Shown here in pieces: positions 48,812 to 64,000 of a DNA stretch of 64,000 nt. The DNA comes from Acidithiobacillus thiooxidans ATCC 19377 (GTDB lineage: Bacteria > Pseudomonadota > Gammaproteobacteria > Acidithiobacillales > Acidithiobacillaceae), in contig NZ_CP045571.1 in NCBI RefSeq assembly GCF_009662475.1, positions 494,501 through 558,500 of the forward strand, in the 5' to 3' direction. The first letter of the stretch is position 1. Every line of letters begins with the position of its first letter. The notes under the pieces are model-generated. The model was not told the DNA's origin and searched no databases. It worked only from the letters and a program-made list of their open reading frames with translations. Position numbers and translations under genes: made by a program.

Positions 48812-48889
<78 letters not shown>

Positions 48890-48901
48890 TTAATCAATGG
48901 G

Positions 48902-49933
48902 TTAGGACGTTTTATCCTGATTCATTTTTCTACAATCATCCCCTTTTTCTACAATCCTGCTCAGTGGGGTGATTCGCTCCGCTTCTCTGGCTCTGATATA
49001 TGCCTCGGTCATATCGCCGCTGGCATGGCCAGCCAAGGCTTGCGCGTAGTCTCTTCCAGAGACCCGCTTGGCGTCGGTAAGCGCCTTTGCTCGTATGTCA
49101 TGAAAGTGAATATCCTCCACGCCAACTTTGGCCACGATACGCCGCCAGGCGCTGTTCCAACCACTGACACTATAGGGTTGCCCGTCGCGTGTACAAAAGA
49201 AGTAGAGCGACCCTACCCTGCGGCGCAAGCTCTTGGAACGTGAAATCACTTCCTCCAATGCAGGGCTAATGATGAAGGCCATCTTTTTTCCAGTCTTGCT
49301 CTGGCTGATGAGCAGAGAGTCACCGTTGATATCCGAAAGTCGAAGTCTCATGATGTCACCGCGCCGCATGGCGGTGAGGTAGGCGATATCAATGATGCAC
49401 TGCCACTGGCTATCAGCATGTGACCTGATAAGGTCGAACTCTTCGTCAGTGATGTAGCGGTCCCGAGGTTTCTCCTTGTTTCGCCTGACACCTTTGGTTG
49501 GATTGTGTTCACACCAGCCCCATCGAATAGCGAAGGAGAATACCGTCGAAAGAAGGGCCATCTCGCGATTGGCTGCAACCGGTGATGGATGCTGATCAAG
49601 GTATGCGGCGATATCCATACCCCTCACCTCGACGATCTGCATGTGTCCAAACACGGAGCGCAGCAGCGCGGATTGACGGATGTATTCCTTTCTGGTGGAC
49701 TCTGCGAGCTTGGATAGCTCCGTACCGATATAGCGATCTATGGCCTGTCCCACTGTGGAGCCAGAGGCATTGTGTCCTTCCATCTCGGCCCACTTGGCAA
49801 CAGCCTCAGGATAATTGTCTGCGAGCCTGGTCCACTGGCGCTTTCCGGCGACGAGCGTGACGTAATAGTACACCTTGCCTTTCTGGTGCATCCTTGGTGG
49901 AAGATTATGGTGTGACGATCTATGCCGTCCCAT
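48902..49933 (-). CDS. int: Tyrosine recombinase / phage integrase
   Basis: Site-specific recombinase of 343 residues. An N-terminal arm-type/SAM-like domain is followed by the catalytic domain with Arg in TAMRRGDIMRLR, Lys in SQSKTGKKMAF, H-x-x-R in HFHDIRAKAL and the nucleophilic Tyr in GDMTEAYIRAR. The gene ends 13 bases from tRNA-Pro, implying integration there. Its start overlaps the DUF4224 gene by 14 bases. Confidence 0.93.
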   Translation of the reverse strand: MGRHRSSHHNLPPRMHQKGKVYYYVTLVAGKRQWTRLADNYPEAVAKWAEMEGHNASGSTVGQAIDRYIGTELSKLAESTRKEYIRQSALLRSVFGHMQIVEVRGMDIAAYLDQHPSPVAANREMALLSTVFSFAIRWGWCEHNPTKGVRRNKEKPRDRYITDEEFDLIRSHADSQWQCIIDIAYLTAMRRGDIMRLRLSDINGDSLLISQSKTGKKMAFIISPALEEVISRSKSLRRRVGSLYFFCTRDGQPYSVSGWNSAWRRIVAKVGVEDIHFHDIRAKALTDAKRVSGRDYAQALAGHASGDMTEAYIRAREAERITPLSRIVEKGDDCRKMNQDKTS

Positions 49934-50159
49934 GTCGTCGTTGCTCCTGCTTCAGAACATCCAGTCTCGGCACATTACGTCTGGGCATTGCCCCTGATCC
50001 AACGAGATGACGTTCGACCTCTGCCCAAAGTACCACTGGTCGCCCGGTTGCCGCCACTTCATGCCTGTAACCATGGTCACATAGCCATCTGACCTGCCCA
50101 GGCTTGGTCTTCAGTCCTGTGAGGCTATATAGATCTTCCGGCGTTAGAAAAGTAGCCAT
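49920..50159 (-). CDS. DUF4224 phage protein (possible excisionase-like)
   Basis: A 79-residue protein starting FLTPEDLYSLTGLKTKPGQVRWLCDHGY, the DUF4224 pattern often found directly before phage integrases. The fold looks like a small winged helix, so a directionality-factor role is possible but unproven. It overlaps the integrase start. Confidence 0.75.
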   Translation of the reverse strand: MATFLTPEDLYSLTGLKTKPGQVRWLCDHGYRHEVAATGRPVVLWAEVERHLVGSGAMPRRNVPRLDVLKQEQRRHGTA

Positions 50160-51129: not shown

Positions 51130-51858
51130 TCAGTTTTTCCTTGGCCTCTTAATCCTGTTGTGCTGCACCTCAGTACCAATGATGCGCAAATGCTCTACAT
51201 CTGATCGCAATGTTGGGTAGTCGGGATTGAGTGGCACAAGTTCGAAGTATTCAACACCCTGCTCATTGCGGCCTCGTGGTCGAAACTTTTTGAACGTCGC
51301 CTCATGCTCGTGATTCTTTGCCACCACGCAATCTCCAGGTTGTGGGGATGCTTGAGGGTCGATGATGACGATATCCCCATCCGCATATTCGGGCACCATG
51401 GAGTTGCCGGTGATCCTTAGTGCAAAAGCAAATCTGGATACCTCAGCTAACACTGCGATCTCCTTCTCGCACGCTCCAAGAGCGTATGGATCGGTGACCT
51501 CAGTCAAGCGCCCAGCCGCCACGCTGCTGATAAGGGGGACAGTGCGTATGGGTTCCTCTACGGGCACTACATTTTGGTCGAAGGGTCTCGGCCCACGAAG
51601 ATTAAGGTTTTCCGTTGATTGAAGGGCCCACCATTCTGGGGACTGCAAGACGGATCCAATCTTGATCGACAACTCCTCTCCACACTTCCTATTCCCGAGG
51701 ATTACTTGGGATAGGTGAGAAGGGTCCATCTTTAGAAGCTCAGCAACACGGCGGTGGGCACCACGCTTGCCCCCACGCAGTTTTTCATCTTCCACCATGC
51801 GGGCAAGCGTAGCCCGCCGCTTTTCGTATATCTCGGGTAGGTTCTTTACTGTTTCCAT
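51130..51858 (-). CDS. CI-like phage repressor (LexA/S24 family)
   Basis: A 242-residue repressor from ATG 51858: an N-terminal helix-turn-helix (HRRVAELLKMDPSHLSQVILG) and a C-terminal S24 self-cleavage domain with the Ser in ITGNSMVPEYADGDIVII and the Lys in EATFKKF. The Ala-Gly cleavage site is probably in SSVAAGRL. The frame extends 87 bases upstream, but that stretch is the promoter-operator region, so Met30 is preferred even though no good ribosome-binding site is seen. The self-cleavage residues imply release on DNA damage (RecA), by analogy. Confidence 0.85.
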   Translation of the reverse strand: METVKNLPEIYEKRRATLARMVEDEKLRGGKRGAHRRVAELLKMDPSHLSQVILGNRKCGEELSIKIGSVLQSPEWWALQSTENLNLRGPRPFDQNVVPVEEPIRTVPLISSVAAGRLTEVTDPYALGACEKEIAVLAEVSRFAFALRITGNSMVPEYADGDIVIIDPQASPQPGDCVVAKNHEHEATFKKFRPRGRNEQGVEYFELVPLNPDYPTLRSDVEHLRIIGTEVQHNRIKRPRKN

Positions 51859-51868
51859 AGCGACGATG

Positions 51869-51936
51869 CTAGCTGACGCTAATCGGTCATACGATGAGCT
51901 GTAGCTGTTGACAACATGCTTAGCCATAGCTAATTT
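51869..51936. promoter_or_regulatory. Divergent cI/cro promoters with two operators
   Basis: Rightward promoter: TTGACA 51908-51913, 17 bases, TAATTT 51931-51936. Leftward promoter: TTGTCA (51914-51909), 17 bases, TATGAC (51891-51886). The two -35 boxes overlap. Operator TTAGCCATAGCTAA (51920-51933) covers the rightward spacer and -10; operator CTAGCTGACGCTAA (51869-51882) covers the expected leftward start. The layout implies that the repressor shuts off cro and limits itself. Confidence 0.7.
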
Positions 51937-51943
51937 ATTTGGC

Positions 51944-52168
51944 ATGAACCTGATCTCCTACCTTGATGAATTTGGAAACAGCGCACTTGCACAGGCGCTT
52001 GGCGTCACGCCATCGCTTATTTCTCAATGGAAAACGGGGCGTCGCAACATCTCGCCTGAGAGCGCGATTCGCATCGAGCGCGCCACCGCCGGCGCTGTCA
52101 CCCGTGCCGAACTCCGCCCCGACATCTTCGGCCCCTTGGGCGGGATCAGAGACCAGGGGGCTGTATGA
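51944..52168 (+). CDS. Cro-like DNA-binding protein
   Basis: A 74-residue protein with a helix-turn-helix (GNSALAQALGVTPSLISQWKTGRRNISPE), the YdaS/Cro type. ATG 51944 is the first base or nearly so of the predicted transcript, and no ribosome-binding site precedes it, so the message may be leaderless. Divergent from the repressor, it is the first gene of the rightward early operon. Confidence 0.8.
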   Translation: MNLISYLDEFGNSALAQALGVTPSLISQWKTGRRNISPESAIRIERATAGAVTRAELRPDIFGPLGGIRDQGAV

Positions 52169-52293
52169 ACGCTCCACCAGAAACCACTTCTTTGCCAGGA
52201 AACGGGGGCACCCGGATTGCGTTTCCAGCCGCGCTATCATTCCTGGCGCCTATTCGTAGGGCTGGGAAGGCTGGAAGAGACCATGCCGAGTGA
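52165..52293 (+). CDS. 42-residue ORF linking cro and the replication gene
   Basis: A short frame starts in the cro stop (ATGA, 52165) and stops 11 bases inside the next gene (start 52283). The product begins MNAPPETTSLPGNGG and ends RRAGKAGRDHAE. Tight coupling on both sides suggests it is translated, perhaps only to carry ribosomes to the replication gene. No family recognised. Confidence 0.4.
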   Translation: MNAPPETTSLPGNGGTRIAFPAALSFLAPIRRAGKAGRDHAE

Positions 52294-53281
52294 TGCACAA
52301 AAACTGGATTGTTCAGCGCTTCCGCCCCCACCAGTACCAGCAGACATCGATCTGCGTTCATATTGCTGGATGAAGCTGGATTTGAGCCGACTTCATTCCA
52401 GCGACTTCATCCACCTGGCCAGCAATGAGGAGTTCGGCGCAGCTGTAAAGCTATGGACCGAATCCATGCGGCAAGTACCTGCTGGTAGCCTTCCCAACGA
52501 TGACAAGATCCTGGCGTGCCTCGCTGGATATCGAGGCTCACCCCGGCGGTGGATGAAAGTCAGGACTATTGCGCTGCATGGTTTCTCCCTTTGCTCCGAT
52601 GGCCGCCTGTACCATCCCGTGCTTGCCGAAATGGTACTGGATGCCTGGGGCAACAAGACCCAACAGCCGACATCAAGCCCTTCGGACCCACGCGCCAAGG
52701 ATCGTGAGCGCCTTCGTCGCTGGCGGGCGGCACAGAGGGCCAGGCAGGAAAACGCTCAGTCTAACAGAACTGAGGAAGCACACTACTCTACCCAAGCCGA
52801 TGAAACGGCTGAAACGTTTCAAGACCGTTTCACCGAAACGTTTCCTGAAACGGCTGAAACGTTTCACAGAAAAGAAAGAGAGAGAGAAAAGAGAGAGAGA
52901 AGAAACGTTAATAACGTTTCAGAAACGGCGGGTGAAACGTTTCAGGAAACGCCACCACCAGAGCCCTCTCCACTGCCGACAGCAACCCGCGAAGGCACGT
53001 TGTGCAAGAAACTACGGGGGCTTGGCGTCCGTGCGGCCCCACACATGGTTGTTGTGCAGGAGATGTGCGCCCGTCATTCCGACGAGCACATCCTGGCTGC
53101 GGCGGAAATCGCCCTGGAGAAAAAAGGCAGCGGCATTCATGTCGGCTACATCGCCGCGATGCTGAAAGATCCTGGGAGATCTTCAGTGAAAGGAGCAAAG
53201 AACAAGCAAACAGATGGTCCGCCCAACCGCTCTCTCCTGCCGCCCGTCGCCGTTGCCGAATCTCATTTCATTGCCCTGTAG
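52283..53281 (+). CDS. DUF1376-type phage replication protein
   Basis: A 332-residue protein. Residues 25-140 fit DUF1376 (WMKLDLSRLHSS, then PNDDKILACLAGY, then the WMKVR stretch), a domain seen in phage replication initiators. Residues about 170-222 form a Glu/Thr/Phe and Arg-rich linker encoded by repeated GAAACGTTTC palindromes. The C-terminal part (about 235-310) is helical and resembles initiator C-termini. With the DnaC-like gene next it mirrors lambda O and P. ATG 52283 is preferred over the longer frame because it overlaps the preceding small ORF. Confidence 0.75.
   Translation: MPSDAQKLDCSALPPPPVPADIDLRSYCWMKLDLSRLHSSDFIHLASNEEFGAAVKLWTESMRQVPAGSLPNDDKILACLAGYRGSPRRWMKVRTIALHGFSLCSDGRLYHPVLAEMVLDAWGNKTQQPTSSPSDPRAKDRERLRRWRAAQRARQENAQSNRTEEAHYSTQADETAETFQDRFTETFPETAETFHRKEREREKRERRNVNNVSETAGETFQETPPPEPSPLPTATREGTLCKKLRGLGVRAAPHMVVVQEMCARHSDEHILAAAEIALEKKGSGIHVGYIAAMLKDPGRSSVKGAKNKQTDGPPNRSLLPPVAVAESHFIAL
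52802..52951. other. Probable phage replication origin: GAAACGTTTC iterons in the replication gene
   Basis: The palindrome GAAACGTTTC occurs at 52811-52820, 52835-52844, 52856-52865 and 52934-52943. A longer form, GAAACGTTAATAACGTTTC, lies at 52902-52920, and half-sites (GAAACGG, CCGTTTC) lie at 52802, 52826, 52847 and 52922. A pure A/G tract of about 30 bases (52869-52900) splits the cluster. Iterons plus a strand-biased tract inside an initiator gene next to a helicase loader is the lambda origin plan. Confidence 0.65.
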
Positions 53282-53291
53282 GAGAGCCGCC

Positions 53292-54152
53292 ATGGCAATA
53301 CCGAAGAAGTCCGAGAATAAACATCAGCCATTAGTTCACACGGGCGATGCTGCCAGGGATCTCCTTGCCCGATGGGGGTTCGATCCCAATAACGTGGCGA
53401 TCCTGCCCGACCGGCATCCCCAGTACCGCGAGTGCGCGCGCCATGGCCGCTATCCGATCTCCATGGTGGATGAGCGGGATGCCATCCGCTACATGTCGCC
53501 AGTCTGTCCGGTGTGCGCGGCGGAGCAGGCCTCCCGCCGGCTCATGGAGAGTGCGGCCATCCCAAAGCGCTACGTTGACTGCGGCTTCGACAACTACGTG
53601 GTCGATGTCCCGGGTCAGCAGACGGCCCTCAATGTCTGCCGGGACTACGCAGATTATTTCGAGGAGCACGCCCGCAAGGGATCCTGTCTCGTCATCTGCG
53701 GGAATCCCGGCACGGGCAAAAACCACCTGGCGTCTGCCATCGCCCACGTTGTGCTGGCCAAAGGGCACAGCGTGCTCCAAGTCACTGCCTACGACATCAT
53801 TGCCCGGATCCGCCAGACCTGGCAGCGGGGAATTGGCAACAGCACGGAGCTGGAGGTCATCCGCGGGTTTGCGGAAGTGGGCCTGCTCATCATCGACGAG
53901 GTCGGGAAAACCTTCGGCAGCGATGGAGAGCGGGTGCATCTCTTCGAGGTCATTGATCACCGATACCGCGATCTGAAGCCGACCCTCATCCTGTCCAACG
54001 AGAGCATTGGCGGTGTGGAGAAATACCTGGGTCCGGCCGCCTTCGACCGGCTGTGCCAGAATGGCGGGCTGCTGCTCTTTGACTGGCAGAGCCATCGTCG
54101 GGGGAGGGAGTACAAATCCGATACGGCAGCCTGCCTGCGGGGTGAACTATGA
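53292..54152 (+). CDS. DnaC-like helicase loader ATPase
   Basis: A 286-residue AAA+ protein with Walker A GNPGTGKNHLASAI (the same GKN form as E. coli DnaC), Walker B LLIIDEVGKTFG and sensor region LILSNESI. A Cys-rich N-terminus (CARHG ... CPVC) may bind zinc. It would load the replicative helicase at the phage origin. ATG 53292 follows GGAGAG. It overlaps the next gene by four bases. Confidence 0.88.
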   Translation: MAIPKKSENKHQPLVHTGDAARDLLARWGFDPNNVAILPDRHPQYRECARHGRYPISMVDERDAIRYMSPVCPVCAAEQASRRLMESAAIPKRYVDCGFDNYVVDVPGQQTALNVCRDYADYFEEHARKGSCLVICGNPGTGKNHLASAIAHVVLAKGHSVLQVTAYDIIARIRQTWQRGIGNSTELEVIRGFAEVGLLIIDEVGKTFGSDGERVHLFEVIDHRYRDLKPTLILSNESIGGVEKYLGPAAFDRLCQNGGLLLFDWQSHRRGREYKSDTAACLRGEL

Positions 54153-55348
54153 ACAGAAATCATGAGCAGCAGCGTCTGCTGATAGCTCGTCTCTCAGAAG
54201 GCCACCCGATGCTGAACCCTCATCCTATCCGTTCTGGCTGCGCCCGAAGCACAACCGGGAACATGACATCCTACCTGATTGACCTCGGCCCATTCTTTTC
54301 AGAGCCAAAGCAGTTCCTGGAAGACCTGCGTGCGAGTGATTTTGCTCCGAAGGGATACGATTGCAGCGCTCAGATTGCCATCCGCCTGATGCGCTGGTCG
54401 CAAAGCATCCAGTTGACCCCCCGCCAAAATCACGTGATGAACCAGATCGTCTCTGAAGCCATTCGGCGCGGAGCCGCGATCATCGAATCCAAAATAAGGA
54501 TGGCTGAATGGTCTATACCAGATCATCGCGACGATCATCACGACCTCGCCGTCTCTGCGGCCACCAAGGCATTGCAACACTTTACGGAGAAGCACGACCT
54601 GGCAAAGGTGCCGCACCCCAATATCGCGACATTCGTTGACGTGCATACCCGGTTTGCCTCCCGTGATGCCATGGAAGATTTTATTTATCGAAAGCGCCTT
54701 GATGCGGAATCTGCATTGCCACACGAACCGACGTTCTCCAAAGCATCGCTGGAAAGAGTCATCCGGCAGAGGCGATCGGAGCTCAAGAGTCTCTCCGGAG
54801 AAAAGCGGCAGACGAAAATGCGGGAGCTGGAAAGAATGGAAGCCACGCTTCATGGAGTGCGAACAGAGGTTCGCCTGGAATATGCGCTGGAAGAAAGGGG
54901 AGACCATGAGGCACGAGGCAGTAGCGAGCGACTTTCGCTGGAGGAGCAGGTGTCCATCGCAGTCGGAGGTATTGACCTGGAAGAGGAAGACGATAGTTAT
55001 GAGATGCCCGCCGACCAGCGGGAGTTCCTGGACCTTCTGATTCAGGTGGGTAACCAGCAAATCGCTGCAAAGCAGCTCATACCTTACCTGGCCGAGGCAA
55101 GGGAATACCGTGCCATTCTCGGCCTTCTTCAGGTGCTGAAGAAAACCGATGAAATCAGCCTTGAAGCAGCATCGCTGCGTGAACTGCTGGGCAATCGAGG
55201 GTTGACCGATATTCGCAAGCAGGTCCTGCGTGTTGGCAGGGCCGACGGCTGTGAAGTGGTCTCCCTTTTCGACACATGCAAGGCATACCTTCGTGGGGAG
55301 AATGGTGAACGTGAAGTGTTGGCTGCACTGCAGGTGGCCTCCGTATGA
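54149..55348 (+). CDS. Phage protein of unknown function with a sigma-like segment
   Basis: A 399-residue protein between the DnaC-like and Dam genes, overlapping both as ATGA. Residues about 130-185 (DLAVSAATKALQHF, then ATFVDVHTRFASRDAMEDFIYRKR) recall sigma-70 region 2, and a charged coiled stretch follows at 195-260. A second helical domain lies at 290-390. No catalytic motif was recognised. A phage transcription factor is one possibility, held weakly. Confidence 0.6.
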   Translation: MNRNHEQQRLLIARLSEGHPMLNPHPIRSGCARSTTGNMTSYLIDLGPFFSEPKQFLEDLRASDFAPKGYDCSAQIAIRLMRWSQSIQLTPRQNHVMNQIVSEAIRRGAAIIESKIRMAEWSIPDHRDDHHDLAVSAATKALQHFTEKHDLAKVPHPNIATFVDVHTRFASRDAMEDFIYRKRLDAESALPHEPTFSKASLERVIRQRRSELKSLSGEKRQTKMRELERMEATLHGVRTEVRLEYALEERGDHEARGSSERLSLEEQVSIAVGGIDLEEEDDSYEMPADQREFLDLLIQVGNQQIAAKQLIPYLAEAREYRAILGLLQVLKKTDEISLEAASLRELLGNRGLTDIRKQVLRVGRADGCEVVSLFDTCKAYLRGENGEREVLAALQVASV

Positions 55349-56235
55349 GAGTACATCCGCCATTTCCCTGGCTGGGCGGAAAGGGGAAACTTGCTGACCA
55401 GATTCTTGCCCGGCTTCCCGAGCCGGCACGGGAACTGACCTACGTCGAGCCCTTCTTTGGTGGCGGAGCGGTGTTTTTTGCCCGTCGTCCATCCGGCATT
55501 GAGGTCATCAATGATGCAAACGGCGAGATCGTGACCTTCTTTCGTGTGCTCCGTGACCGCACAGACGAACTGATCCGATACTTGCAGAACACCCCCTACT
55601 CGCGCCAACTGTTTTATGAGTGGCGGGCCATTCAGGACCCAGCCCAGCTGCCAGAGATAGAGCGTGCTGCGCGGTTTTTCTATATTGCCAGATCCGCATT
55701 CGCGGCCGAATCCACCCGCAAAAATCCAGCGTGGGCCTTCGCCAAGGTTTTTGACAATAAGGCTCGGTCCATGGCCGCAGTCATCGATTCGGAATTGCGA
55801 TTGGTTCGGGATCGGCTGCGGTACGCGCTGATTGAGAACGATGATGCCATTGCGGTTGTCCGGAGATTTGATACCCCATCCGCCGTCATCTACTGTGACC
55901 CGCCTTATCTCCAGGCCACCCGCAGAGACGGGCAATATGCCGATGAGATGAGTGACCAGGATCATGAAAACCTGCTTCAGGTGCTCTCAGCATGTGATGC
56001 CTATGTCGCGATCTCCGGCTATCCCAGTGATTTATATTCGGATCATTTGGAATCCGGGCAAGGATGGTCCTTTGTGGATGTCGCCCACTCCTGTCACGCG
56101 AACCGATCAGGGCAAGCTGGAGAAGATATTGATCGAGAGCGGACAGAAAGGATCTGGTTGAATCCGCGCCTTACGGATTGGTACGACCGGCACGCTCCGC
56201 GCCAGTGTTCCCTATTGGATCTGTGCGCCGTGTGA
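55345..56235 (+). CDS. Phage DNA adenine methylase (Dam/D12 class)
   Basis: N6-adenine methyltransferase of 296 residues. The SAM motif PFPWLGGKGKLADQI is at residues 6-20, VEPFFGGGAVFF follows, and the catalytic DPPY is in VIYCDPPYLQATRRDG. Phages use such enzymes to mark their DNA or evade restriction. It is the last intact gene of the phage part. Confidence 0.9.
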   Translation: MRVHPPFPWLGGKGKLADQILARLPEPARELTYVEPFFGGGAVFFARRPSGIEVINDANGEIVTFFRVLRDRTDELIRYLQNTPYSRQLFYEWRAIQDPAQLPEIERAARFFYIARSAFAAESTRKNPAWAFAKVFDNKARSMAAVIDSELRLVRDRLRYALIENDDAIAVVRRFDTPSAVIYCDPPYLQATRRDGQYADEMSDQDHENLLQVLSACDAYVAISGYPSDLYSDHLESGQGWSFVDVAHSCHANRSGQAGEDIDRERTERIWLNPRLTDWYDRHAPRQCSLLDLCAV

Positions 56236-56576: not shown

Positions 56577-58502
56577 TTAGTCTGTGAGAACCTCAACCTC
56601 TTCGGCAGTGAACCATCCCTCACCTACGACACTATTTCGAACTGCGTCCGGTTTTTCGGAATAGGCCACAATCGCAAGGCTTTCCATAGCTCGACTGCAT
56701 GTCACATAAAAGAGGCGGCGCGTACGATCAATCGTGGTCTCGTCACCTGACTCTTCGTTTCTAATGTCTGAGGCACTTTTGGCTTTTGCACCGAATAATT
56801 TTTCATAGCTGAATGTGAAACCACGCGCTTCCTCGTCGCTGACTACGACTTTAACCCTCTGAAATTCGAGACCCTTCACGCCTTGGTGCGTACCGAAGGG
56901 GGATTTCCCTGCGACGTAGTCTGCGTATGCCTTGATCTGATCAAAGGGTGTGGCAAGAAATTCCCGCCACCCCTCCAACTCGATGTCAATCTTACTTGTC
57001 TCGTCCTCTTCCTTATCATCGACTGCCTTGTCCTCTGCCCGCTGATCTCCGGTTTCATCCATATCCGCTTGCGAAAGAAAGATCGCGAGTGCGTCAGGAA
57101 TGACAAACAACTTCGTCGCTGCGAGTGTGTCTAGCACCAGCTGGAAGGATGGATGAGCATCGTTGTTCCACAGCTTTGCAAGTTCTACCACGGCCGCTTT
57201 TGTCTTTTGAATCTGGATCAGTTGGTTTGATCCGGCCGCAGAAAGCGCTTCCGGACGCAGGAGTGGGGAATGTTTTCGGGTGATCTCTGCAACACGAAAG
57301 GCGTTGTCACTTCTAAATGCCTCAACTACGGGTAAGACTTCTTCAGAGAAAAGGCGAAGGCTGGAGAGCGAACCGTCCAGCAGCGATGTCCTGAGCCGTT
57401 CAATTGCATAGAGGGGTGTGAACATCGCATCGAATCCCAAACGGCGAGCGGCCATATGATGTTCGAGAATGAGCGTCTTAAATTCACCCTTCAACCAGCC
57501 AGAGTCTCCAGTTACCTCCGCCATCTTAGTGGCGAACTGCTCTTCTACATCAGCCACGTCCGCCATGTTGTTGGGGAGAATGAAAAACCTCACAAAACCC
57601 TGTACACTGTCTTTGGGTCCCTGCTGCATTTGTCCATCAGCAGCTGAGCGGACTCGATTAATGAGCTGAATGATGCGATGGGGGCAGCGATAATTCAACT
57701 TCTTGACCGGAGTTGCCCAGTCGGCTGGAATGGCTTTCTCTAGTCCTACTTTTCCATCCGCATAAATGCGCTGCATGGTATCCCCGAAGAGTCCCAAACA
57801 GAAGCGATCCTTTTGAGCTTGCTGGATCGCCAGGAATGCATCCATCAGGTTCTTGTTAGTATCCTGGCTTTCGTCGATGAAGATGATTGGATACTTGCTT
57901 ACCAGAATGTTCTGGAGAAGTGGCTTTCCTTTTAGGAAATCGGCAGCTATACCGATGACTTCGCTGTGATTGAGAGAGTCCCGAGTGCGGTTATCACCTG
58001 TAGGGCTGTAAACAAAGCGTTTGATTGAATCGAGGCGGCCGAGGCGTTTTTTACCGATTGCGATTGAGCGTTGACGATCCTCTGCAGCCTTGGTTCCCAG
58101 CCTGCCCTTTGCCGCAGCTGCTTCCAGTTCAATTAGTTTTTGCTTGATGTTCTCTCGAAGCCACTTACGGATATCCGCGTGATAACCACCGATTAACGAC
58201 CATGCCAAGGAATGGATTGTGGAGACTTCAACTAGCGGATCAAAGTCGAGGCGCTGCTTGATCTCCTCGCAAGCGTTGTTGGTATAGGTGATGACTGCTA
58301 CGCCGCGCCCAGCAAGAACTAGTTGTTTTCGTGAGCTAGTTTGAACTTCTTTGAGGGCATTTACGAGCGATCTAGTTTTGCCAGACCCCGCTCCAGCATA
58401 GAGGAAGAAGCTACGGGGTTGTGCAAGATCAAGGCACGCGTGTATCTCTTCCTCGACACCCGCATCCATTGTACTGTTATCTATTGCGTCTGGATCGCTC
58501 AT
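56577..58502 (-). CDS. UvrD/Rep-family helicase (GajB-like partner of the OLD protein)
   Basis: Superfamily 1A helicase of 641 residues. Walker A AGAGSGKT lies at residues 36-43, motif Ia/Ic region VAVITYTNNACEEIKQRL follows, Walker B is IIFIDESQDTN, motif III FGDTMQRIYADG, motif IV NYRCPHRI, and motif VI LFYVTCSRAMESL. The start overlaps the OLD gene stop as ATGA, the fixed order of Gabija gajA-gajB and of class 2 OLD systems. It looks intact, but the IS insertion upstream may block its transcription. Confidence 0.88.
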   Translation of the reverse strand: MSDPDAIDNSTMDAGVEEEIHACLDLAQPRSFFLYAGAGSGKTRSLVNALKEVQTSSRKQLVLAGRGVAVITYTNNACEEIKQRLDFDPLVEVSTIHSLAWSLIGGYHADIRKWLRENIKQKLIELEAAAAKGRLGTKAAEDRQRSIAIGKKRLGRLDSIKRFVYSPTGDNRTRDSLNHSEVIGIAADFLKGKPLLQNILVSKYPIIFIDESQDTNKNLMDAFLAIQQAQKDRFCLGLFGDTMQRIYADGKVGLEKAIPADWATPVKKLNYRCPHRIIQLINRVRSAADGQMQQGPKDSVQGFVRFFILPNNMADVADVEEQFATKMAEVTGDSGWLKGEFKTLILEHHMAARRLGFDAMFTPLYAIERLRTSLLDGSLSSLRLFSEEVLPVVEAFRSDNAFRVAEITRKHSPLLRPEALSAAGSNQLIQIQKTKAAVVELAKLWNNDAHPSFQLVLDTLAATKLFVIPDALAIFLSQADMDETGDQRAEDKAVDDKEEDETSKIDIELEGWREFLATPFDQIKAYADYVAGKSPFGTHQGVKGLEFQRVKVVVSDEEARGFTFSYEKLFGAKAKSASDIRNEESGDETTIDRTRRLFYVTCSRAMESLAIVAYSEKPDAVRNSVVGEGWFTAEEVEVLTD

Positions 58503-60404
58503 TCCGCCATTACTCCGTCTTCAATGCTGGGAAGCACGTCAACCTGCTTTTTCTTTAGACGTTCCTCAAGCCAGATGAGGCCTTCAGCAATGTAGTCTGG
58601 GCATTTGAGTGTCTTGAACTCTTCGCTTAGTAACACGTCCAGAGCGAACTCTGCCTTATTGCCGCTCCGCAGCGCGACAAACATAGCATCCGCAGCTGTA
58701 ATATCTGACGTAACCTTAGAATTATTAAGGGCATCTTTGAACTTTTTGACTAGCCCATGGCCATTTAATTGCGAGAAGAAATCAGCGTTCTCAAAGACTA
58801 GCGCATCCTCGAATGTACTGGGTAGTGCCTCTTCTTCAACTTCTCCGTCATTTTTTTGTACGGTGATAGGAAGCTGATAGGCCACACGTACCGCAAATAA
58901 TTGGTCACCTTCGAGAGTCTTCTGCTCGGTCGTTGCCACCAGGAGGTCGTCGACGCTATCGATCTTGGGGACCCAAGTCTTCAAAACATTGTTGTGGGTC
59001 CGTTGACTCGCACCGCGCTTTACTGGCGCGGCCGTGACCTTTGTGCCTTCCACCTCAACCGCATCCAGATCAGTGACTACCAGCGTGAGGAGGCCTAGCG
59101 CGTTGATGAGAGGCTTTAGTCGATGCGCGTGGCTACCGTTGATTTCAAGGAGAGTGATGTAGCACTGTGTCAAAAACTCATGATGCTCCCGAATAAAGTT
59201 GGGAACGAGCATCTTTTCCGCTGGGCCTTCAACGAGGATTGCAGCATCGGCAAAGAAAAGGTCGCTATGCTGAGCACGCAGATATCTAGTCACGAACCGC
59301 TCTGTCTCGGTCCCTTCCCCAAACACGTCAGACAGATTGACGACCGTGGAAATCGGAACTGTTGCCCCCCCCATTCCTGCTGGCAAGCGGCGAAAATACC
59401 TTAGACACGCGAATTTAGCTTCGTGCGCCACATGGCTTGAGTGTGTGCTGACAATGAGCTGAGTCTGTAGATCTGGGTTCTCGCCAAGGTGGCCATGGTC
59501 CCTGAGCACCTTATATGCCTTATTGATGAAAACCTGCTGCACCTGGGCGTGTAGATGGGCTTCCGGCTCTTCAACCAGAACCAGATGAATAGGTTCAAAC
59601 TTCGATTCGGTTCCGATTTTGCTCGCTTTTCCGACACGCATCCATGCGTCGCGAAAACTCATAAGCCGGAAGATCATGGAGATCAAATTCTGGTAGCCGA
59701 GACCGTTGTAGCTTTCCGGCAACCTCAGAATCGGCACTGTCGCTCCAGCCTTGCTGACCATCTTAATCTCGAATGAGAGTGCGGCATCGTGATCTAGGCC
59801 ATCAACCGTCTTGAGCTTGGAAGTGATCTTTAACTTTGGGTCCGATACTCCCGGGTAACCCATTCCCTCCACTTCTGTGAAGGCATCGGCGAAGCTCGCG
59901 TGCAGTCGCTTATCAAAGGCTTTTTGGGCTGTTTCGATAGCCTGAAGCGCGGCAAGGTCGGCAACGCCTGGTGTCTGAAACGGATCAAGGTGCTTCGTGT
60001 AATACGTGCGCAGTTGGTCTGAAAGTTTTTGAGTGTCATGGTCCTTGGCCGCTTCGGGGTCAATGTCTGCGCCGTCCGTCTCACCCAAGCCACGTTGAGC
60101 ATTGATCTCATTCACGCGAATGAGCCCGTGGAGTGGGTCTGGGTCGAGCGGAAGAGTGTCCTCTGCAAGCTCCTGTGGCTTCGCATGACCATTAACAGGG
60201 TCAACCAGCTTTTCCGGATCCAATACGTATGTCTGCATCTCCAGATGTTGCGACAGCTTGTGGCTGAGAAAATCAGTGAGGCTGACTGGCCAGAGTGTCA
60301 GCTTCATCTCCGCTTTTTCTGCGCCTTCCTCGGCCTTTGTTTCGGCGTCTTTTATTGCCTGATGGAGTTTATGAACATCTTGGATAGCAACCCGGAATTC
60401 GCGA
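58499..60404 (-). pseudogene. Class 2 OLD ATPase/TOPRIM nuclease, C-terminal part (split by IS256 element)
   Basis: From the IS junction the open frame continues without stop into MKLTLWPVSLTDFLSHKL (ATG 60307) and on to 58499. It holds the ABC signature region LPESYNGLGYQNLISMIF, Walker B LVLVEEPEAHLHAQ, the D-loop His region VSTHSSHVAHE, and a TOPRIM domain with ILVEGPAEKMLVP and the VTDLDAVE acidic motif. The Walker A part lies on the other side of the insertion. Joined at the 9-base duplication the frame matches and would give 774 residues. Confidence 0.88.
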
Positions 60405-61819
60405 GAGCTATGCTCGAAAGTGGTGTACGGGCGCGTTACAACTGGCTTGAATGAGGTGGCGTACTGTTGCTACAAAGGGTTTCCGACTCAAAGAGCAACA
60501 TAAGGAGTACGCCGTGGAAAAGAATACCGTAATAGCAGGTGGGATGGGAGAGTTGGGTCTGGGCATTGAAGGGATACTTCGACGCGCGGCACGCTCTCTG
60601 ATTGAGCAGGCCATAGAGGCAGAGGTGGCGGTATTGCTGGAAGAATTTGCGACAGTGCGGATGGTTGATGGGCGTCAGGCGGTCGTGCGTAATGGGCATC
60701 TGCCGGAGCGCGAGATCATGACCGCTCTGGGTCCGGTACCCGTCAAAGTACCCAAGGTGCGGGACCGCTCAGGATCGGGGATCAAATTCAATTCGGTACT
60801 GGCGCCTCCGTATGTACGCAAATCACGAACGGTAGCCGCTACAGTACCTTGGCTCTATCTGCATGGGGTGTCTTCCGGCCACATGCAGGAAGCCCTTTCC
60901 ATTTTGCTGGGTGATGAGGCCAAGGGACTTTCACCTGCGGTGTTGGGACGTCTCAAGGCGGAGTGGGCGCAAGAGTATGCCCATTGGCAACACCGCTCCC
61001 TACAGGGAAAGCGCTATGCTTACTGGTGGGTAGACGGTATTTATACGAACCTCCGTGCGGAGGAGGATCCGCGTATCTGCCTGCTGGTGATTATCGGCGT
61101 GACGGCAGAGGGCAAGAAAGAGCTGGTCAGTGTCAGTGACGGCCTGCGCGAATCCAAAGCTTCCTGGCTGGAGATCCTGCGTGACCTGCAGGCGCGCGGT
61201 CTGGAGGCGGCCCCTTTGCTCGCCATTGGGGATGGTGCCATGGGGTTTTGGGCCGCACTGGATGAAGCCTATCCCGAAACTGGTCAGCAACGCTGCTGGG
61301 TGCATAAGACCGCCAACATTCTCAACGAACTTCCCAAAGCCCAACAGAGCAAAGCCAAGGCAGCGTTGCAGGAAATCTGGATGGCCGCCAATCGCCAGGC
61401 TGCGGAAAAAGCACTGGACGTGTTTGTGCGCAATTACCAGGCAAAGTATCCCAAGGCCGTGGCTAAACTGGAAAAAGATCGGGCTGAATTGCTCGCTTTC
61501 TATGATTTTCCAGCCGAACACTGGCGGCATATCCGGACCACCAATGCCATTGAGTCCACCTTCGCTACGGTACGCCACCGGACTACCCGGACGAAGAACT
61601 GTGTATCACGCAGCAGCTTTCTGGGATTGGGTTTCAAGATGCTGCAGCAGGCTGAAAAACGCTGGATTGGGATTTATGCTCCAGAGAAAGTCCTGCAGCT
61701 TTTTGCAGGGGTGAAATTTATCGATGGCTTACCGGCTAACCTCACCCTGCCGGATGATCAACAGACCGCCGCCTGATCTATGTCAGAAAATGCTCATACA
61801 CCAGATTTGACTATAGCTC
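60405..61819 (+). mobile_element. IS256-family insertion sequence, 1,415 bp
   Basis: Ends are defined by terminal inverted repeats starting GAGCTAT (60405 onward, and the complement ending at 61819); 22 of the first 28 bases match. The element is bordered by the perfect 9-base duplication AATTCGCGA (60396-60404 and 61820-61828), the size typical of IS256-family insertion. It carries one complete transposase gene and has split the OLD nuclease gene. Confidence 0.92.
60514..61776 (+). CDS. IS256-family transposase
   Basis: DDE transposase of 420 residues from GTG 60514, which follows AAGGAG; the frame opens further upstream at 60451. The catalytic acids are in WWVDGIYTNL, LAIGDGAMGFW and TTNAIESTFATVRHR, and the C-H region QRCWVHKTANILN is typical of the mutator/IS256 group. 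No frameshift or stop was seen, so it could be active. Confidence 0.93.
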   Translation: MEKNTVIAGGMGELGLGIEGILRRAARSLIEQAIEAEVAVLLEEFATVRMVDGRQAVVRNGHLPEREIMTALGPVPVKVPKVRDRSGSGIKFNSVLAPPYVRKSRTVAATVPWLYLHGVSSGHMQEALSILLGDEAKGLSPAVLGRLKAEWAQEYAHWQHRSLQGKRYAYWWVDGIYTNLRAEEDPRICLLVIIGVTAEGKKELVSVSDGLRESKASWLEILRDLQARGLEAAPLLAIGDGAMGFWAALDEAYPETGQQRCWVHKTANILNELPKAQQSKAKAALQEIWMAANRQAAEKALDVFVRNYQAKYPKAVAKLEKDRAELLAFYDFPAEHWRHIRTTNAIESTFATVRHRTTRTKNCVSRSSFLGLGFKMLQQAEKRWIGIYAPEKVLQLFAGVKFIDGLPANLTLPDDQQTAA

Positions 61820-62247
61820 AATTCGCGATAAAGGGCTTCAAGGTCTTTGGGCCTGAGACACAACCTCACGCCCAATAACCCACCAGCCCAGTCGAGGCTG
61901 GGCAACAAGGCGCTGACGTGGTGAATTTCATTGTTCTCAGCCTGCAGCCAGATATCCAGCATCGGGAGGAGAGGGGCCCAAAGCTTGGGATCGAGTTCTG
62001 TGGGTTTGTCGTCTGTGGCTGCTGCCCAAGCTTTACCGATGTCGTCGATGGCGCTCCAATGCGCCAGGGTGAAATCTTGCGTCCTGAATCCCTTCCCTTT
62101 TTTGACAAGAAAACGACGTATGGCTTGAATGGCGGATGTCTTCCCGCTATTGTTTGCGCCGACAAAGAGCGTAGTCTCGTCCGCTAGATCGATCCGGACG
62201 GAGTAGAGCTTACGGAAATTAGCAATTTCAATATGAGAAATACGCAT
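61783..62247 (-). pseudogene. Class 2 OLD ATPase/TOPRIM nuclease, N-terminal part
   Basis: Starts MRISHIEIANFRKLYSVRIDL and has Walker A VGANNSGKTSAIQAIRRFL, as in OLD/Gabija GajA proteins. Residues 1-142 (to ...LEALYRE) are native; the last dozen residues, read into the IS256 end, are not. The missing remainder of the gene continues at 60395. AGAGG lies 11 bases before ATG 62247. The gap of 107 bases to the DUF262 gene shows nothing clear. Confidence 0.85.
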
Positions 62248-62354: not shown

Positions 62355-63437
62355 TTATCTATCGGATTTCCTGCGATTGCATTCTCGACAGAGCATTTGT
62401 CCATTAACCAATTCCGTCTTGCCTCCTTGCGACCATGGTGTTACGTGGTCTGCCTCCATCTGGCCAATCTCAAAAATTTTCAGGCATGCGGCACAAGCAC
62501 CGTTCTGACGTTCGTAGAGAGTACGCTTATTCCCGTCCGTAAACTCACGGATACTCAAGTATTTCTCGTTTCTTGTAAGTAGAAACTCATATATTCCTTT
62601 CTTCCTTGTCACATCGTCATCTGCCATAAGACGCGCCACCGATTCCTCCAGCGTCCTCGGATCAAGATCGTCATCCTTATATTTGTTATAAAGAATTCCC
62701 CAAGCGATACCCTTCATCTCCCTACGGTACTTCGTGAAAGTGGCCTTTACCCAGTTAATAACAGTTTGGAAATAAAGCCACAGTGGATTGGCGTTTTTAT
62801 CATGCTGGTGTTTTGCCATATAACCATCTATGTCACCATTATTTATCCATGAGATGGCGGTTTCTAGGTAGTCTTGGCGGTTGGGCGCACCGTTCATATA
62901 TTTTTCTGAGACTATCCAGGCAGCACACTGGTTCTTGGAGAAATAGCGCTTGGCATCTGCCGTCCATGAGCCTGCGTAGACCGCGTTTCGCAACTCTTGA
63001 TCTGTCAGTTTTTCACCAGCAATATTGATAATACGAAACCAGTCCAGTTTCTCACTATCAGCGCCCTGACATTGGTACACGGTTAGTTTGTAGTTGAGGA
63101 TGCTATCTCTCTCATTATGTTGAAGGTTATGGAAGTAACGATCTTTGTAGGAAAATACACCATCCACATACTGGCAGATCGAAATGGTACGCTGTTGACC
63201 GTCGATAATCTCGAAACCTTCAGGAGTTATAGCCCAGTACATCGTGTTGAGCGGAAAGTCTCTAGTGATAGTATCGATCACCGCCTCACGTTGTTTATCG
63301 TTGTAAACAAATTCTCTCTGGTAGGGCGGGCGGATATTTAGTCTGTCGCCGAAACCGACAACTCCGGCCTCCTGATTGTCCTGGTAACCTTCGACCAAAT
63401 CTCTGATCGCGATATTATGCAGTTTTATCTCCATCAT
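62355..63437 (-). CDS. DUF262-HNH endonuclease (GmrSD-like)
   Basis: A 360-residue protein. The N-terminal DUF262 (ParB/Srx-like NTPase) has the key motif IDGQQRTISICQY and RPPYQREFVYN. The C-terminal HNH nuclease has two Cys pairs (CAAC ... CREC) around MEADHVTPWSQGGKTELVNG. Such proteins cut foreign or modified DNA. The start overlaps the stop of the methyltransferase gene (ATGA), so the two probably act as a restriction pair with the methylase protecting the host; this pairing is inference. Confidence 0.85.
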   Translation of the reverse strand: MMEIKLHNIAIRDLVEGYQDNQEAGVVGFGDRLNIRPPYQREFVYNDKQREAVIDTITRDFPLNTMYWAITPEGFEIIDGQQRTISICQYVDGVFSYKDRYFHNLQHNERDSILNYKLTVYQCQGADSEKLDWFRIINIAGEKLTDQELRNAVYAGSWTADAKRYFSKNQCAAWIVSEKYMNGAPNRQDYLETAISWINNGDIDGYMAKHQHDKNANPLWLYFQTVINWVKATFTKYRREMKGIAWGILYNKYKDDDLDPRTLEESVARLMADDDVTRKKGIYEFLLTRNEKYLSIREFTDGNKRTLYERQNGACAACLKIFEIGQMEADHVTPWSQGGKTELVNGQMLCRECNRRKSDR

Positions 63438-64000
63438 TTCTCCGAAGCAATATTATGGTTGCGGATGAAAAGGCGTTTGTAAACCCGCTTTCCTTTTATA
63501 ACCGCCTGCGAAATGCCGCTTTCAGGTTTCCATAGCCCAAAAGAAAAGCCTGAGCCTTCACTTTCTGTTGCACCAATTATCTTGAATTGTTCAGGGTTAT
63601 ATTTAGTGAGGAACGTGATTGGGACGCCCATTGCGCCCTCATAATCGAGAGGAATATCCTGCGTCTTTGAGACCTCTATGGCATCATAGTTGTCATAGAG
63701 AGGATAAGCTGATTCATTGCCGTCGTAACGCTTTACCAAAATCATTTCCTCATGACGCTTGTGGTGGTCGAGGTTTGTGTACCAGACCACCCCAGATACC
63801 CGGATCATACCGTCCCGATGATCGGCGTCAGAAGCAGTATCCTTATAATGTGGTGCAACAAAATGAGCCATATTTCTTTTGAAACCGTAGCCAAGCCACA
63901 TTTTGTTGTTCTTAATGAGAGGGAAAACATCTTTATAGGTAATCGCGTTTTGGTGCCCTATGATGATGAACTTTTTATTGTGGTTGGCTAACTGCGCCAC
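63434..64000 (-). CDS. EcoRI-family adenine-specific DNA methyltransferase, C-terminal part (cut by window edge)
   Basis: The frame is open to the right edge; 188 residues are seen. FIIIGHQNAITYKDVFPLIKNNKMWLGYG, then YDAIEVSKTQDIPLDYEGAMGVPITFLTKYNPEQFKIIG, are the pattern of M.EcoRI-like N6-adenine methyltransferases. The catalytic NPPF-type motif would be further right, outside the window; the GTG at 64000 is not taken as the start. It is the first gene seen of the leftward defence cluster. Confidence 0.8.
   Translation of the reverse strand: MAQLANHNKKFIIIGHQNAITYKDVFPLIKNNKMWLGYGFKRNMAHFVAPHYKDTASDADHRDGMIRVSGVVWYTNLDHHKRHEEMILVKRYDGNESAYPLYDNYDAIEVSKTQDIPLDYEGAMGVPITFLTKYNPEQFKIIGATESEGSGFSFGLWKPESGISQAVIKGKRVYKRLFIRNHNIASEK

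Follow-up and report, generated by a model that had tools for sequence, protein, structure and literature searches.

A candidate lambda-type replication origin within the DUF1376 initiator gene of an integrative conjugative element from Acidithiobacillus thiooxidans

What function might a dense array of inverted repeats serve inside a protein-coding gene? We met such an array in a 64,000-nt stretch of the Acidithiobacillus thiooxidans ATCC 19377 chromosome (contig NZ_CP045571.1, positions 494,501 to 558,500; hereafter the window, whose own numbering is used below), in the middle of a gene for a DUF1376 protein. A preliminary description had proposed a replication origin in the style of phage lambda, i.e. 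one embedded in the gene of its own initiator. In lambda, according to passages of PMC5043065 and PMC7466680, O binds as a dimer to iterons that are inverted repeats, and nearly all purines of the A+T-rich region beside them are on one strand. We asked how far the window DNA follows this plan, what is conserved in it, and which protein would read it.

Layout of the repeats and the surrounding module

The gene lies in a module with a repressor and a Cro-like gene upstream and a putative helicase loader downstream (strand in brackets, followed by the basis of the assignment):

51130-51945 (-): CI-like S24 repressor; Pfam, PHROG
51908-52168 (+): YdaS/Cro-like regulator; PF15943, PF14549
52283-53281 (+): DUF1376 initiator gene (332 aa), with the candidate origin in its linker; ORF list, Pfam PF07120, PHROG 22470 replication protein
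52367-52630 (+): DUF1376 domain, predicted winged-helix-like and DNA-binding, the proposed specificity module; Pfam residues 29-116, AlphaFold model
52988-53281 (+): C-terminal block of the initiator, apparently recombined independently of the N-domain and iterons; DNA identity of four genes
53292-54152 (+): DnaC/IstB-like AAA+ helicase loader; Pfam, PHROG
54149-55348 (+): 399-aa protein linked to the module; no Pfam or PHROG match
55345-56235 (+): D12-class adenine DNA methyltransferase, linked to the module; Pfam, linkage

Between the two ends of the initiator gene lie the following elements, without strand except for the tract:

52802-52951: iteron cluster of 15 GAAACG/CGTTTC half-sites, four pairs of which form GAAACGTTTC; motif counts, DNA kept in 8 related genes
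52811-52820: palindromic iteron 1, GAAACGTTTC; motif search
52835-52844: palindromic iteron 2; motif search
52856-52865: palindromic iteron 3; motif search
52934-52943: palindromic iteron 4; motif search
52868-52905 (+): 38-nt pure purine tract, the proposed unwinding or strand-asymmetry element; run search, tract common in DUF1376 genes
52902-52920: 19-nt inverted repeat GAAACGTTAATAACGTTTC at the tract end, near the hairpin position of many relatives; pattern search, shuffles

All four exact copies of GAAACGTTTC that had been described were present (starting at 52811, 52835, 52856 and 52934; spacings of 24, 21 and 78; all in codon phase 0). Each is an overlapping pair of half-sites, and the 15 half-sites, which are spread over all three codon phases, fill exactly the interval of 52802-52951 in which they were said to crowd. 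The whole 3,415,726-base genome holds five copies of GAAACGTTTC, four of them inside the cluster; the pattern read backwards occurs 12 times. The 19-base extended palindrome GAAACGTTAATAACGTTTC was also where it had been placed, perfect apart from the base at its centre; judged by 100 shuffles of the window sequence, no match to a repeat of this type was expected. The A/G tract proved as pure as described and longer, 38 nt rather than 30. It is the sole pure purine or pyrimidine run of at least 30 nt in the window, lies between iterons 3 and 4, and shares its final four bases with the first four of the inverted repeat. In 300 synonymous-codon shuffles of the gene, the clustering was never equalled (p about 0.003), and with the purine tract masked it stood at z = 9.1. 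Folding of the strand as DNA far exceeded that of shuffles (z -6.6), and no known RNA family matched within 51800-54400 at E<=1.

Two features of a lambda-type origin are thereby present, several palindromic iterons within the initiator gene and a strand-asymmetric purine region (the 38-nt run) beside them. A third, a helicase-loader gene directly 3', is there by family match: the next gene, already named as DnaC-like, encodes an IstB/DnaC-like AAA+ protein (PHROG DnaC-like helicase loader, E 1.3e-63).

The window gene matches PF07120 with E 2.5e-7 and 31.4 bits, above the gathering cut-off of 30.1. An AlphaFold model of the DUF1376 domain had a pLDDT of 91.3. Fold matches of this model were weak; DNA-binding protein, Rep-DNA complex and initiator entries scored Z 4.1-4.9 and ORC domains Z 3.4-3.9, amid unrelated entries such as a ribosomal protein (Z 4.2) and a kinase (Z 3.7). 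Foldseek gave no match to the model at E<=0.001, and a sequence search of solved structures with A2 as query returned nothing meaningful (best E 0.55). PF04492 (Phage_rep_O) had no match in the window initiator at E<=10, a search in which it matched lambda O at 6e-36 and P22 18 at 7e-38. Comparing A2 as a profile with A3, an alignment of two sequences, likewise gave no match. Homology of DUF1376 with the lambda O domain was rejected on these two results, and by its sequence the window initiator is outside the lambda O Pfam family. A DNA search of the C-terminal block against phage DNA gave no match.

Recurrence in the DUF1376 family and among phages

To see how widely this arrangement recurs, we collected 80 viral-contig and 79 genome-contig loci together with the earlier loci. 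Of 201 ORFs with a DUF1376 match, 182 were kept once 15 loci present in duplicate or as second pieces, and ORFs with ambiguous letters, had been set aside, and 139 remained without near-identical genes. As controls we used 246 other ORFs from the same loci, each 700-1500 nt long and also non-redundant, and clusters of inverted 6-mers were scored against synonymous shuffles. With the tract masked, a cluster at p<=0.01 was found in 43/139 DUF1376 genes and 3/246 control ORFs (unmasked, 52/139 and 5/246). The test is insensitive (Rac ydaU, p 0.09), and some of the 96/139 genes without a significant cluster may truly have none. Where clusters were found at p<=0.02, their centre lay 0-330 nt past the DUF1376 domain in 45 of 48 genes. 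Purine tracts (score >=20) occurred in 99/139 DUF1376 genes against 7/246 controls and pyrimidine tracts in 0/139; the tract started 3' of the cluster centre in 35 of 49 genes. Hairpins were scored in the 117 genes with a tract score of at least 16 and enough sequence. An arm of at least 6 within 50 nt past the tract was found in 41/117, compared with 127/1602 other windows of these genes, although in about 8 of these 41, all from the group to which the window gene belongs, the hairpin is a pair of iterons. Iterons, purine tract and hairpin therefore recur in part of the family, mostly in the order of the lambda origin. A CTAACG or CTGACG loop on varying stems was seen in 10 of the 41 post-tract hairpins (e.g. 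L169, L135, L086, L121).

The half-site itself varies by group, with GAAACG, GTAACG, TGTCCC, TTCC-GGAA, GCGATC and other types. Motif classes were assigned by hand, with similar 6-mers merged by hand, for 47 of the 48 genes at p<=0.02 (L007 was left out). Pairs of genes shared a class in 24/24 cases at N-domain identities of at least 80%, in 74/95 at 70-80% and in 25/498 below 50%. Below 70% identity, the nearest neighbour agreed in class for 22 of 47 genes, where 2000 shuffles gave a mean of 11.5 and a largest value of 22. L045 and L024 carry GAAACG-type iterons, and their nearest labelled relatives, at under 70% identity, belong to another class; domain similarity therefore does not always predict the site. 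A loader was recognised beside 18/128 relatives, and 76/128 matched none of the five query proteins used in this limited search.

The comparison with lambda is close in layout: palindromic iterons in the middle of the initiator gene, then a strand-asymmetric purine or AT-rich tract, then the loader gene. It differs in the N-domain (DUF1376 rather than the PF04492 of lambda O), in the DnaC/IstB-like loader, in the ICE that carries the module and in that the window iterons flank the tract on both sides. In the cluster test lambda O and P22 18 each gave p 0.01, and the non-initiator controls lambda P and the window DnaC gave p 0.95 and 1.0. Lambda O has a purine tract past its iterons (score 21); P22 18 has no long one (score 11). 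The N-domains of phages phi297, Magia, Hali, Solano and Alize are 46-54% identical to that of the window (tblastn) and are followed by a purine-rich tract, but their linker repeats (e.g. TGTCCC and GTGAC types by eye), C-terminal parts and neighbours are different. Repeats inside an O-like gene are also described for Pseudomonas phage MD8, in a passage of PMC8508860.

Another close system is the Rac prophage of E. coli, whose YdaU is a DUF1376 protein (E 2.7e-26). Rac encodes YdaS, YdaT, YdaU and the IstB-like loader YdaV in this order, so that its YdaS-like regulator, DUF1376 protein and loader follow one another as in the window, with ydaT in between. The ydaU gene holds TGTTCAAACA and its complement; the likeness to the window gene lies in these and in internal TGTTTGAACA repeats, together with a stretch of AT/purine character and a hairpin rich in C, both noted on reading the sequence, and the difference in another iteron sequence and the cluster-test value given above. 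Rac has an active origin, oriJ, according to a passage of PMC3945230; in the literature passages on Rac we found no statement that oriJ lies within ydaU. In Rac-SA53 the first 156 residues of YdaU are kept at 94% and the C-terminal part differs (DnaT domain); each of the two genes has three TGTTCAA sites and one TTGAACA site.

The O-like protein of Gifsy-2 has a C-terminal domain 47% identical to that of YdaU and an adjoining IstB-like loader, but its N-terminal domain is PF04492. A YdaU-type C-domain also follows a third N-domain without a Pfam match, in phage 673R7, again beside an IstB-like loader. As common C-domains stand behind either DUF1376 or PF04492, DUF1376 occupies the position of the lambda O DNA-binding domain. 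GTAACG/CGTTAC half-sites were seen by eye in the linker of the 673R7 O protein (L345:1054-1842), possibly a third class of such initiators.

An exact search of viral contigs for the C-rich hairpin of the P22 origin gave, among the 80 matches listed, 60 in genes that directly match P22 18 and lambda O. Grouped by sequence, 68 of the 80 listed clustered with P22 18/lambda O and 4 were in DUF1376 genes; a further 6 belonged to a cluster whose DUF1376 match was sub-threshold, and 2 to others. The hairpin thus seems to be common to different initiator families.

Carrier, reader and conserved DNA

The module sits within what is, by its gene content, a 101-kb integrative conjugative element (ICE). 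Its left end is in the window:

48842-48891 (+): attL, 50-bp core at the 3' end of tRNA-Pro; exact repeat at genome 644578-644627
48902-49933 (-): tyrosine integrase of the element; Pfam
49920-50159 (-): DUF4224 protein beside the integrase, presumably excisionase-like from its position; Pfam

The exact 50-bp att repeats lie 101,236 bp apart. Between them are the CI, Cro, initiator, loader and methyltransferase genes, defence genes, ArdC, a relaxase (just above the Pfam cut-off), VirB11-, VirB4-, TrbL- and VirB8-type proteins and VirD4. With integrase, att repeats at a tRNA gene, relaxase, type IV secretion system (T4SS) and coupling protein all in one interval, the carrier is therefore classed from its genes as an ICE with a phage-type replicator. 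A phage or prophage was rejected on the same genes; none of the element proteins scanned for families was a capsid or tail protein, the other listed ORFs being judged by eye. Nor is the combination confined to this element, as DUF1376 modules lie near T4SS genes in four genomes. In tblastn searches with the window-element proteins, the module was within about 65 kb of relaxase, VirB11, VirB4 and TrbL in G003 and G007, and within 20 kb of VirB8, VirD4, ParA and ParB in G011; no T4SS gene was found near the second G003 copy (L206-L208) or on the G008 contig (L211) in the stretches covered.

PADLOC named several defence systems on the ICE: a Gabija pair (window 56577-62247, minus strand), with GajB at 56577-58502, one piece of GajA at 58499-60307 and another at 61783-62247, and between these pieces an ORF (60451-61776) that is transposase-like by eye, and type II restriction-modification genes with an AbiEi/AbiEii pair (window 62355-64000; L196:3838-5398).

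The presence of a relaxase allows another account, in which the repeats are the relic of a true former origin and the ICE now replicates via relaxase and oriT like R391. There is precedent for this, since a passage of PMC4489591 reports replication through TraI at oriT for the R391 family of ICEs. We nonetheless consider it unlikely, given that the iterons are conserved in eight related genes (below) and that the module recurs near T4SS genes in the four genomes.

If the repeats form an origin, the type of iteron should be inherited with the part of the initiator that binds it. A natural swap among four genes of one genus bears on this. L016 and L021 have a common N-domain (76% DNA identity) and the half-site GAAACG; L027 and L022 have another (83%) and the half-site GTAACG. 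The C-terminal blocks pair crosswise, L016 with L027 (90%) and L021 with L022 (95% DNA identity), the other pairs being at 75-77%. The N-domain and iterons have therefore apparently recombined as a unit onto two C-blocks. Next to L027 (read in L117), the loader, the methyltransferase and the 399-aa protein show 93-97% identity with their window counterparts. In the cluster test L022 and L023 were significant and L027 was not (p 0.34); L027 has six GTAACG/CGTTAC half-sites, a motif that is significant in L022, and retains one GAAACG. A swap of this kind would be expected of an initiator whose DUF1376 domain recognises the iterons and whose C-block cooperates with the loader. Inheritance of iteron type with the N-domain is thus seen in these four genes and is weaker across the family.

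Two Acidithiobacillus genomes have a partial second DUF1376 N-domain just 5' of the full gene (L120:2543-4109, L143:3591-5230), perhaps a remnant of specificity-domain exchange. The window's own genome has a second DUF1376 gene (L028; G000:C1:1640303-1640764, minus strand) with 13 CGTTAC/GTAACG half-sites, unlike the iteron type of the window; its open frame is far longer, at 739 aa. In G003, two DUF1376 genes share one iteron class, which counts against the origin reading in so far as copies that avoid interference would be expected to have distinct iterons.

Could the repeats instead be operator or silencer sites, through which either CI or Cro of the element, or a LacI/Cra-type repressor of the host, controls the replication operon? 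The sites are short palindromes, a repressor and a Cro-like gene lie upstream, and the E. coli consensus for a LacI/Cra-type repressor resembles TGAAACGTTTCA. However, the half-site changes along with the DUF1376 domain, and the cluster is internal to the initiator gene, where a purine tract and a hairpin accompany it as they do in many relatives; we regard regulation as very unlikely. The LacI/Cra-type candidate was rejected: PF00356 had no match at E<=0.001 in the whole genome, and the same search was positive in 9 of 14 control genomes.

Whether DNA or protein is kept was examined in an alignment of eight genes: that of the window, six from same-genus genomes (73-93% protein identity) and one from a viral contig (90%). 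Searching the whole class added little, with matches in 3 of 369 genomes including that of the window itself. Across the eight genes 7/82 iteron columns vary compared with 37/68 between iterons (Fisher P 6e-10), and third codon positions vary at 2/26 inside iterons and at 190/283 elsewhere. The full inverted-repeat pattern occurs in 5/8 genes. It is translated in phase 1 (RNVNNVS, RNVDNVS) in four of them, the window gene reading RNVNNVS, and in phase 0 (ETLITFP) in one, L005, small indels having shifted its reading frame among relatives. In L026 and L020 the arms are kept around a longer loop, and in L021 the repeat is lost. As the repeat persists despite frame-changing indels, the DNA is what is kept. 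The homologue comparison that had been suggested thus came out on the side of the DNA, which is retained while residues change, once via a change of frame; the case that would have told against it, E-T-F residues kept over destroyed palindromes, was looked for and the opposite was found.

The contrary view, that E-T-F and charged repeats are selected as a structural linker with the DNA repeats as by-product, can point to the single codon phase of the four full palindromes. It can also point to the P22-type C-rich hairpin, whose codon phase is identical in 79/80 among the matches listed; such constancy may reflect a shared peptide or a recombination joint, and it weakens this hairpin as a proof of DNA-level selection. 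Yet the half-sites of the window occupy all three phases, as does the (GGGACA)2G purine repeat of relatives (22, 8 and 4 genes), and together with the frame shift over the conserved inverted repeat and the conserved third positions this makes selection on the protein extremely unlikely, in keeping with the original argument that the DNA is selected. A centromere-like partition site, or another maintenance site, is barely credible: the element does encode a ParA-type protein and a neighbour that is ParB-like by eye, but both are about 80 kb from the iterons, and the repeats travel with the DUF1376 domain in a layout like that of the lambda origin.

Proposed function and its meaning

The lambda-style origin first proposed for this locus is thus supported by the conservation of the DNA, by a half-site that follows the N-domain, by the lambda-like layout and by the adjoining loader. 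On this comparative evidence, we consider the best explanation to be a lambda-type in-gene origin, which the DUF1376 domain probably recognises and for which the DnaC-like loader would act, with a probability of roughly 85%. The ICE would thus have its replication origin in the 52802-52951 interval, inside the gene that encodes its initiator. The predicted winged-helix-like N-terminal DUF1376 domain, as a dimer, would bind the GAAACGTTTC palindromes and half-sites, and the bound array would open the strand-asymmetric purine tract and the AT-rich bases alongside. The C-terminal block and the DnaC-like loader could then load DnaB, the helicase of the host, onto the strand so exposed, in the manner of lambda O and P, with the inverted repeat at the tract end as a putative third origin element. 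From this site the excised ICE would copy itself.

Three points appear to be new: the family to which the initiator belongs, the swap in which domain and iterons change together, and an ICE as host. A published statement of an origin inside a DUF1376 gene was not found in the open-access literature, which is no proof of absence.

Besides an ICE, phage records and the genome loci of many bacteria contain DUF1376, which is called a domain of unknown function in a passage of PMC5795418; the present reading proposes a testable function for this Pfam family. We lean, with the balance only somewhat in its favour, towards a broader view in which the many DUF1376 proteins are interchangeable modules for origin recognition, with cognate iterons in their own genes, a cassette that moves between phages and conjugative elements and that copies Acidithiobacillus ICEs in a lambda-like manner, instead of or besides relaxase-driven replication. 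Because each gene would carry both domain and target, the family may offer a natural library of domains matched to their DNA sites. If this is true, such matched sets would be useful for reading the specificity code and for compatible mini-replicons. For the elements themselves, this reading suggests that some ICEs replicate by means of a phage-type initiator and helicase loader.
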